DNA of 6,339 nucleotides from Clostridiales bacterium. GTDB lineage: Bacteria > Bacillota_A > Clostridia > Saccharofermentanales > Saccharofermentanaceae. The stretch is taken from contig JAGCGE010000359.1 of NCBI GenBank assembly GCA_017649745.1, positions 1-6,339 of the forward strand, in the 5' to 3' direction. The notes below the pieces were generated by a model. It saw nothing but the letters and a program-made list of their open reading frames with translations, was not told the DNA's origin and made no database searches. Both the position numbers and the translations under genes were made by a program. This document shows, one piece after another, positions 5,623-6,339 of the stretch (position 1 is the first letter of the stretch; the number at the start of each line of letters is the position of its first letter).

Positions 5623-5843
5623 TGTCAAAAGAGGATGTAATCGAGGTTGAGGGTAAAGTAGTTGATGCGCTTCCTAATGCGATGTTCAAGGTTGAGCTTG
5701 ATAACGGACATATCGTTCTTGCTCATATCTCAGGTAAGCTTCGTCAGAACTATATCAAGATACTTCCGGGAGACAAGGTAACTATGGAGCTTTCACCATA
5801 TGATCTCTCACGCGGAAGGATCACTTGGAGAGCTAAGAACTGA
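5622..5843 (+). CDS. infA: Translation initiation factor IF-1
   Basis: IF-1 (73 aa, typical) is a single S1-like OB-fold that occupies the ribosomal A site on the 30S subunit and aids IF-2 and IF-3 in start selection. The sequence begins [13 protein letters not shown] and contains [14 protein letters not shown] (residues 17-30), [20 protein letters not shown] (34-53) and [14 protein letters not shown], all close to the family consensus. The ATG shares its A with the map stop codon. In many Clostridia a small KOW-domain RNA-binding protein gene lies between map and infA; here there is none. The stop is followed 7 nt later by the stem of an intrinsic terminator. Confidence 0.98.
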
Positions 5844-5850
5844 TTACGAG

Positions 5851-5876
5851 AAAACCGCTTACAAGGCGGTTTTTTT
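5851..5876 (+). terminator. Intrinsic terminator after infA
   Basis: AAAACCGCTT (5851-5860) and AGGCGGTTTT (5864-5873) form a 10-bp stem with one G-U pair and a 3-nt loop ACA. Seven T (5870-5876) overlap and follow it. The terminator begins 7 nt after the infA stop and should end the adk-map-infA transcript. The A-rich left arm could give weak activity on the other strand, but no gene there needs it. Confidence 0.9.
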
Positions 5877-5894
5877 GACGAAAGATCTTTTTCG

Positions 5895-5941
5895 AAAGAA
5901 AATAAAAAAGTTCTTGCAAAAAAAGAAAACTCTGATAGAAT
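5895..5941 (+). promoter_or_regulatory. Strong promoter for rpmJ and the alpha block
   Basis: TTGCAA (5914-5919) and TAGAAT (5936-5941) are 16 nt apart, and a TG at 5933-5934 gives an extended -10. A/T-rich tracts at 5895-5910 directly upstream resemble an UP element. The predicted start is near 5948, leaving a leader of about 54 nt before rpmJ. The position right after a terminator fits a new transcription unit that runs through rpmJ into rpsM. Matches are 4 of 6 (-35) and 5 of 6 (-10). Confidence 0.75.
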
Positions 5942-5949
5942 ATATTAGC

Positions 5950-5968
5950 ATGCGCGCAAAAGGCGCAT
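5950..5968 (+). promoter_or_regulatory. Hairpin at the 5' end of the rpmJ transcript
   Basis: ATGCGC (5950-5955) pairs perfectly with GCGCAT (5963-5968) around a 7-nt loop. It starts about 2 nt after the predicted transcription start and lies 22 nt before the Shine-Dalgarno. It lacks a T-run. Stem-loops at a transcript's 5' end commonly protect mRNA from RNase J or RppH-dependent decay; that role is inferred here. Confidence 0.5.
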
Positions 5969-6001
5969 AGTTTGCGTTGAAGAAAATGCAGGAGGTACAA
6001 A

Positions 6002-6115
6002 ATGAAGGTTAGACCATCAGTAAAGCCTATGTGCGAGAAGTGCAAGGTTATTCGCCGTAACGGTAAAGTCATGATCATTTGCTCCGATCCTAAGCACAAG
6101 CAGAAGCAGGGCTAA
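6002..6115 (+). CDS. rpmJ: 50S ribosomal protein L36, zinc type
   Basis: L36 is the smallest ribosomal protein. This one is 37 aa: [20 protein letters not shown], then [17 protein letters not shown]. It binds 23S rRNA near the base of the L7/L12 stalk and is built round one zinc ion. The ligands Cys11, Cys14, Cys27 and His32 are all present, so it is the zinc (C+) form. It has an AGGAGGT site (5990-5996) 5 nt before the ATG. It has its own promoter upstream and is followed by an unusually long 188-nt spacer before rpsM. Confidence 0.97.
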
Positions 6116-6122
6116 GGATAAC

Positions 6123-6159
6123 GCCAAGAGGACAGATTTAGCCCTGTTCAGGTCTTGGT
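6123..6159 (+). promoter_or_regulatory. Leader hairpin 1
   Basis: GCCAAGA (6123-6129) pairs with TCTTGGT (6153-6159), and stacked above it GGACAG (6130-6135) pairs with CTGTTC (6144-6149). This gives 13 pairs (two G-U) interrupted only by a 3-nt bulge (AGG, 6150-6152), with an 8-nt loop ATTTAGCC. It begins 7 nt after the rpmJ stop. No T-run follows. CTGTTC recurs at 6282-6287, next to the rpsM Shine-Dalgarno. Confidence 0.6.
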
Positions 6160-6162
6160 ATG

Positions 6163-6181
6163 TAAGTCCTAACACGACTTA
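6163..6181 (+). promoter_or_regulatory. Leader hairpin 2, loop CTAACAC
   Basis: TAAGTC (6163-6168) and GACTTA (6176-6181) form a perfect 6-bp stem around the 7-nt loop CTAACAC (6169-6175). The same loop, closed by the same C-G pair, tops hairpin 3. Confidence 0.6.
6167..6177 (+). repeat. Direct repeat copy 1, TCCTAACACGA
   Basis: Exact 11-nt match to 6226-6236, 59 nt apart. Each copy forms a hairpin loop plus its two innermost base pairs; the flanking bases differ between copies. Confidence 0.85.
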
Positions 6182-6199
6182 AGAAAAAACAAGAATATT

Positions 6200-6256
6200 A
6201 CACGTCTATGTAGGGGCGGCTGCTTTCCTAACACGAAAGATCCTTACGCTGCGTGT
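6200..6256 (+). promoter_or_regulatory. Leader hairpin 3, long irregular stem with loop CTAACAC
   Basis: Outer helix ACACGT (6200-6205) / GCGTGT (6251-6256) and middle helix GTAGGGG (6210-6216) / TCCTTAC (6241-6247), each including G-U pairs. The top helix is CTTTC (6223-6227) / GAAAG (6235-6239). They are separated by internal loops 6206-6209 / 6248-6250 and 6217-6222 / 6240. The apical loop is CTAACAC (6228-6234), identical to hairpin 2. Confidence 0.5.
6226..6236 (+). repeat. Direct repeat copy 2, TCCTAACACGA
   Basis: Second exact copy of the 11-nt element at 6167-6177. A shorter relative, TTACACG (6198-6204), one mismatch from TAACACG, lies between them. Confidence 0.85.
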
Positions 6257-6303
6257 CGATATATAAATAATTAACATTTTACTGTTCAAATGGAGGTACA
6301 GAA

Positions 6304-6339
6304 ATGGCTCGTATTGCCGGTGTTGATTTGCCAAATGAC
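6304..6339 (+). CDS. rpsM: 30S ribosomal protein S13 (5' end, truncated by window edge)
   Basis: Only the first 12 codons are visible, MARIAGVDLPND, the highly conserved start of S13. S13 lies in the head of the small subunit, bridges to the large subunit (L5) and contacts P-site tRNA. GGAGGT (6292-6297) lies 6 nt before the ATG. It normally opens the alpha operon (rpsM-rpsK-rpsD-rpoA-rplQ), which presumably continues beyond the window. The 188-nt structured spacer in front suggests that its translation is controlled separately from rpmJ. Confidence 0.95.
   Translation, partial: MARIAGVDLPND

Follow-up and report, generated by a model that had tools for sequence, protein, structure and literature searches.

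In gammaproteobacteria, S4 represses translation of rpsM through the alpha-operon leader (accessible portions of PMC10931766), and in Bacilli autoregulation by S4 operates through an untranslated leader of rpsD (PMC7247131). S4 is the experimentally confirmed ligand in both cases, as stated in the accessible portions of PMC7247131 and PMC10931766. For the alpha operon of Clostridia one predicted S4 leader is catalogued, S4-Clostridia (RF03140), for which the accessible portions of the literature give no binding data. Our comparison with described leaders draws on what is accessible of PMC7247131, PMC7779021, PMC10931766 and PMC7356742. Here, we analysed a 6,339-nt stretch of DNA from a Clostridiales bacterium (the window) that ends within the first codons of rpsM, together with related loci. 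Comparison of these sequences argues strongly that a new ribosomal-protein leader, with no catalogued match among the families scanned, precedes rpsM in many Clostridia. It displays two general features of such leaders, a covarying conserved structure and a consistent position upstream of ribosomal-protein genes. No description of a leader with a GCGGCUG bulge was found in the literature as judged by titles and abstract openings, subscription papers being mostly outside reach.

The features of the locus are compiled in Table 1. In the nearest relative, a Clostridiales MAG from yak omasum (L001; 83% identity to the window across 3.7 kb), the downstream gene order is rpsM-rpsK-rpsD-rpoA. A terminator scan of the window returned a single terminator-like site, a GC-rich hairpin (ATGCGC/GCGCAT, 5950-5968) in the rpmJ 5' region, and none between the leader core and rpsM. 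Outside the scan output, inspection by eye revealed a terminator-like hairpin AAAACCGC/GCGGTTTT with a T run after infA and, 3' of it, a promoter-like site before rpmJ (in this order, 5851-5876 and 5914-5941); the alpha operon unit may begin with rpmJ here.

Table 1. Features of the rpmJ-rpsM region, in window positions
Feature	Positions	Strand	Description	Basis
rpmJ (bL36)	6002-6115	+	gene 5' of the leader	37-aa ORF
Hairpin A	6123-6159	+	outer stem GCCAAGA/TCTTGGT (6123-6129/6153-6159), inner stem GGACAG/CTGTTC (6130-6135/6144-6149)	fold, relatives
Hairpin A loop	6136-6143	+	ATTTAGCC, conserved; AGCC complementary to bulge GGCT	relatives
Hairpin 1	6163-6181	+	stem TAAGTC/GACTTA (6163-6168/6176-6181), loop CTAACAC (6169-6175)	sequence, fold
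Leader core	6195-6262	+	P1 (6195-6205 with 6251-6256 and 6258-6262), P2 (6209-6216/6241-6248), bulge, P3	fold, covariation
Bulge	6216-6222	+	5' bulge GCGGCTG, invariant, linking P2 to P3; P2 may be closed by its first G	alignment A3
Hairpin 2 (P3)	6223-6239	+	apical hairpin of the core; stem CTTTC/GAAAG (6223-6227/6235-6239), loop CTAACAC (6228-6234)	sequence, covariation
Shine-Dalgarno of rpsM	6292-6296	+	GGAGG	direct reading
rpsM (uS13) start	6304-6339	+	truncated by the window end	direct reading

A preliminary description of the window had pointed to an exact 11-nt repeat, TCCTAACACGA, at 6167-6177 and 6226-6236, which places identical CTAACAC loops on two perfect stems that differ in their outer pairs. 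Direct reading bears this out on both points. CTAACACGA occurs twice in the 6339 bases, two copies were seen in none of 200 shuffles (mean 0.04), and the repeat is thus real and beyond composition. The minimum-energy fold of the region contains both hairpins; folded alone, hairpin 1 reaches -4.3 kcal/mol, a stability equalled by 11 of 200 shuffles, and hairpin 2 reaches -2.7 kcal/mol, equalled by 50 of 200. Taken as a whole, the 220-nt region is no more stable than its shuffles (z -0.43; equalled by 63 of 200), so that its structure becomes visible only by comparison with relatives. The loops are not mutually complementary, and the earlier rejection of a kissing interaction therefore stands.

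Of the 64 spacers examined, which were those with hairpin A, five from the clade have hairpin 1 (the window, L001, L100, L101 and L102), and the window alone among these five has equal loops in hairpins 1 and 2. Three of its sisters (L001, L100, L102) carry CTGACAC in hairpin 1 and CTAACCC in hairpin 2, and L101 has CTAACAC in hairpin 2 and, by eye, TTAACAG in hairpin 1, which the script closed to TAACA. Among the 89 distinct family spacers with GCGGCTG, the hairpin 2 loop conforms to CTRAYMC in 49, on 13 different stems; it is of another kind in 40, 11 of which have 4-nt loops (TACG, GAAA, TTCG and others) and four of which (L020, L081, L114, L122) retain the CTRACMC letters within a larger loop. 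Elsewhere than in the leader, no 7-nt-loop stem of at least five Watson-Crick pairs was seen to carry a CTRACMC loop (12 sources, 74,730 bases); this loop type so appears to be a habit of the leader in this family rather than of the genome at large. Judged from these relatives, the equal loops are a coincidence within a CTRACMC loop type that both hairpins favour here, and hairpin 1 evidently replaces, in this clade only, an accessory hairpin.

What does not vary lies directly 5' of hairpin 2: in the window fold, P2, a GCGGCTG bulge and P3 are nested inside P1. Using infA of the window as query, we took the best 80 of 571 loci, which are thus picked by likeness to the window; a rpmJ-rpsM spacer was recognised in 62 of them, and the other 18 are excluded from the spacer counts. 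GCGGCTG is present in 46 of the 62 spacers, i.e. in 46 of the 49 that measure at least 100 nt, as compared to 0.2 expected over all 62, and the next commonest 7-mer reaches at most 27 of the 49. Nine of the 18 excluded loci have a rpsM start; five of these contain GCGGCTG and four (L023, L027, L031, L074) do not. A covariance model built from 15 sequences including the window (R1) scored the window core at 73.3 bits. Of 115 family genomes it matched 71 at E<=5e-8, with one strong match apiece, and 92 at E<=1. It matched 10 of 391 genomes of a class sample, nine of them family members already found, which indicates little reach beyond the family. Around R1 matches in the family and the class sample we collected 97 loci (L081-L177), leaving out three (G076, G020, G015) of 63 further family matches. 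The spacer was recognised in 93, all with GCGGCTG. As to the remaining four, L151 has the element next to an unrecognised rpmJ, L162 is cut, and L158 and L177, without GCGGCTG, look like false matches.

Folded on its own, the core has z -1.40, with 18 of 200 shuffles as stable. The alignment of relatives (A3), fitted to the covariance model and hence leaning towards the structure, has GCGGCTG in 71 of 71 rows (63 distinct). Over the distinct rows, 89.7% of the cells are paired as compared to 82.0 in shuffles, cells with double changes number 128 versus 48.9, and the covariation score is 0.338, where shuffles give 0.207 and slid partners 0.07-0.13. Counted by pair rather than by cell, double changes do not exceed column shuffles (12 of 22 versus 11.1). 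The preliminary description had taken a constant loop on changing stems as a sign of selection on RNA structure, and had proposed collecting the spacers of relatives and building a covariance model. That approach upholds one half of the idea, as the stems around hairpin 2 do covary, and not the other, since the hairpin 2 loop varies and is of another kind in 40 of 89 spacers.

By the same comparison, what the earlier reader sought, a loop held constant while its stem changes, is evidently AUUUAGCC of the hairpin at 6130-6149, the inner part of hairpin A. TTAGCC occurs upstream of the core in 64 of the 89 family spacers, within a loop AWTTAGCC in 63 of the 64, and the 64 have 31 different stem pairs among them. 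The 63-nt segment comprising hairpins A and 1 folds with z -2.97, none of 200 shuffles being as stable. The other 25 spacers lack hairpin A and all retain GCGGCTG, which suggests that pairing with AGCC is not all that conserves the bulge; both strands of an AGCC/GGCU pairing are nearly invariant, which puts it beyond the reach of covariation. Spacers from outside the family show no excess of AGCC (8 of 57 versus 14.5 in shuffles; TAGCC 5 versus 5.3; TTAGCC 4 versus 1.7). In L279 and L292, which are mutually similar, and in L058, all from outside the family, the UUAGCC loop belongs to a hairpin located 3' rather than 5' of the core, as if the partner had moved. Where the window has hairpin 1, 55 of the 64 hairpin-A spacers possess another hairpin, B, whose loop plus next base contains [TA]GCT[CT]. 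By eye, its loop (often GCTCC; CUCC) could pair with GGAG of the rpsM ribosome site. Hairpin B was lost in the clade of the window.

The core is rebuilt in other groups as well. Spacers with GCGGCTG from outside the family (57, giving 56 distinct cores) were subjected to an anchored test, in which 44 of 56 cores reformed P2 and P3 (at most 5 of 100 shuffles matching) with unrelated stem letters, e.g. TTTTAGG/CCTAAAA in Clostridiaceae; 12 failed, eight of these without any such structure. A test for duplex enclosure with loose flanks was weaker, with 25 of 46 at <=10 of 200 shuffles. In five Clostridiaceae loci (L189, L192, L199, L234, L238) the first two bulge letters vary and GGCTG is kept. 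A phylum sample (100 of 107 places used) yielded GCGGCTG in the spacers of six genomes; 81 had spacers below 100 nt with neither the strict nor the relaxed motif. The leader is thus found in several groups without being general, and it is rare in the phylum sample. Phage records gave no match. Upstream of the leader in some Clostridiaceae (L197, L198, L200, L204, L207) we noted by eye TTGAC...TATATAGG-like promoters, from which the leader could start its own transcript.

To which protein such an element may respond is suggested by the gene content of the operons. Within the best 80 of 571 infA-related loci, S4 is encoded in the operon in all 40 motif-bearing loci that are uncut before S4, six more being cut, and the same holds for the six motif-bearing loci of the phylum sample. 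Conversely, the motif is absent from six of six Veillonella-type loci whose operons lack S4 and from all nine phylum-sample loci in which S4 was not found in the operon (one of them, L281, cut short). In Clostridiaceae, none of five genomes with their only S4 gene elsewhere has the motif, as compared to 30 of 38 with S4 in place (25 strict plus five relaxed-only matches; Fisher p=0.003, computed with 28 relaxed matches and ignoring kinship). The latter figure derives from 39 examined of 50 better-scoring S4 copies of the alpha-operon type, reduced to 38 by L202, which lacks a rpsM start; two weak S4 matches (E about 1e-4) were ignored.

Eight of the 38 Clostridiaceae with S4 in place lack the motif even by relaxed match, and GCGGCTG is missing from 85 of the 91 phylum-sample operons that include S4: 72 have spacers below 100 nt, three have longer ones, in eight rpmJ was unrecognised, and two have a relaxed match only, in spacers of 19 and 29 nt. 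In a tree of unchecked support, the five S4-less Clostridiaceae fall into two groups whose S4-bearing neighbours (L236, L240; L205) are likewise motif-less, and phylogenetically the link between S4 and the leader is weak. Two sister Clostridiaceae have long motif-less spacers, L249 without S4 in the operon and L205 with S4 kept.

The reading we prefer, and to which we assign a probability of roughly two in three, is that the spacer is a cis-acting leader of the alpha operon, in which a core with a GGCUG bulge would be bound by S4 to repress translation from rpsM on. Ribosomal protein present in excess over 16S rRNA, most likely S4, would bind the core, capped by hairpin 2, through the bulge and thereby repress translation of rpsM and of the coupled genes (rpsM-rpsK-rpsD-rpoA and on). 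Translational control is likelier than attenuation because the scan of the window returned no terminator site between the core and rpsM. The same leader might instead respond to S11, S13, L17, the alpha subunit or a small molecule, which is possible, if rather unlikely: the genes for S13, S11 and RpoA adjoin that for S4 in leader-bearing loci, and the leaderless operons without S4 represent few lineages. Yet these three genes also remain in the five Clostridiaceae operons that lack both S4 and the leader, and S4 is the very ligand confirmed for the gammaproteobacterial and Bacilli leaders cited above. On these grounds, S4 is the likely ligand. The preliminary description had favoured two recognition sites for one ligand or for a dimeric protein. 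In four spacers of the clade (window, L001, L100, L102) both hairpins carry CTRACMC, a loop seen on no other comparable 7-nt-loop stem in the 74,730 bases searched. This fits the idea, which is nevertheless improbable given that sister loops are unequal, hairpin 1 was met in five of the 64 spacers examined and the P3 loop is exchangeable across the family. As the invariant part is the GCGGCUG bulge and not the loops, a two-site or dimeric ligand is not needed.

Slightly less credible still than twin sites is that the element is a divergent member of a known family, S4-Clostridia (RF03140) or Alpha_RBS (RF00140). Both lie at the same place before rpsM, and Alpha_RBS scores the window at 21.3 bits (E 0.0087, taken over a 500-base stretch). 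This score is below the cut-off of 38, though, and in the alignment, which shows one helix only, agreement is mainly at the conserved rpsM start and six helix pairs are non-standard. Permissive Rfam scans gave similar Alpha_RBS values (20.9-21.6 bits) at or beside the leader in the window, L005 and L183, as well as a cow-rumen-4 match (E 5.3) at 6259-6302; their remaining matches fall away from the leader. The preliminary description had named no leader family with this loop, in line with which Rfam 15 at gathering level had no match in the window. In 31 relative loci the only such matches were to RF03140, in L025 and L032: RF03140 occurs in two of five loci without GCGGCTG and in none of 26 with it, the two never being found together. 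For RF03140 the window is below the gathering cut-off (37.5 bits), with no match up to E 10 over 5840-6339. Membership in either family was rejected on these sub-cut-off scores, on the different structure, the RF03140 consensus being GAAAG plus two tandem hairpins, and on the 26 unmatched GCGGCTG loci. Least probable of all is conservation by chance or a signal at the DNA level. The 7-mer alone could be a DNA site, but compensatory changes in P1, P2 and P3 and the rebuilding of the helices outside the family argue against it. The alpha operon also encodes the alpha subunit of RNA polymerase. As the leader is compact and covarying and its invariant part is a single bulge, the ligand question is tractable with a handful of proteins, one RNA and a mutant of the bulge.

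A model for what S4 might recognise was sought in rRNA, with E. coli 16S as reference because RF00177 gave no match in three genomes. CGGCT occurs there once, within the internal loop of helix 18 (504-508); AGCC occurs at 309, 383, 393 and 523, of which 523-526 is the partner strand in helix 18. Position 504 closes a helix, and 508-510 remain in the bulge. According to the accessible portions of PMC7356742, the internal loop of helix 18 includes pairs of 16S 505-507 with 524-526, and the helix-18 enzyme RsuA, which has an S4-like domain, shows reduced affinity owing to S4, perhaps because of overlapping sites in the authors' view. Helix 18 (the 530 pseudoknot) contains both CGGCT and AGCC, and the leader has CGGCU in its 5' bulge and AGCC in the hairpin A loop. 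However, the partner strand in the leader belongs to a separate hairpin, which is absent from 25 of 89 family spacers, and the match spans five letters. We regard as doubtful a split mimicry, in which the leader would imitate the helix-18 pseudoknot as an S4 decoy junction put together from two hairpins, the bulge CGGCU(G) pairing with AGCC of hairpin A like 16S 505-508 with 523-526. The 3' UUAGCC loops of L279, L292 and L058 and the 530-like stretch of separate Clostridiaceae S4 genes (below) would be in keeping with it. If true, it would be rRNA mimicry built from two separate hairpins. Another segment, 16S 39-54 (GCGGCAG, then CCTAACAC), was considered as a model and rejected: the P3 loop differs in 40 of 89 relatives, the five bulge variants keep GGCTG, and GGCAG is present in none of eight leaderless Clostridiaceae spacers.

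Some further observations concern second or separate S4 genes of Clostridiaceae. Upstream of them (L208-L232), [CT]CGCGG[CTA]AA is found in 14 of 25 loci, roughly 30-50 nt ahead of where the S4 match begins, and resembles the 16S 530 loop CCGCGGUAA (525 in E. coli); the separate genes thus carry a stretch of this likeness (CCGCGGCAA versus CCGCGGUAA). L214, L217 and L221 show GGCTG.CTGGCG followed by ACCGC or ATCGC, L226, L228 and L230 look similar by eye, and GCGGCTG as such is present in L211. In the 14 of these 25 loci that were scanned, Rfam gave nothing up to E 0.5. The upstream element could be a second, unlisted S4 leader. Near the promoters of three separate S4 genes (L209, L223, L225) there are GATAATGATTATCATTT-like palindromes, which we take to be of the kind bound by a metal-responsive repressor; this suggests metal-regulated S4 paralogs.

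Besides helix 18 of 16S rRNA, the closest known systems are three leaders. The Bacilli S4 leader is set apart by its description, namely by a GUAA element and a location before a separate rpsD (accessible portions of PMC10931766). Alpha_RBS likewise precedes rpsM, and differs in forming a pseudoknot over the rpsM start. The RF03140 leader (Eckert and Weinberg 2020) shares operon, spacer, bacterial class and predicted S4 ligand with the leader of the window. Its 55-nt model, however, consists of GAAAG and two tandem hairpins, without a GCGGCUG bulge or an enclosing P1/P2, whereas the window core is a nested P1-P2-bulge-P3 structure.
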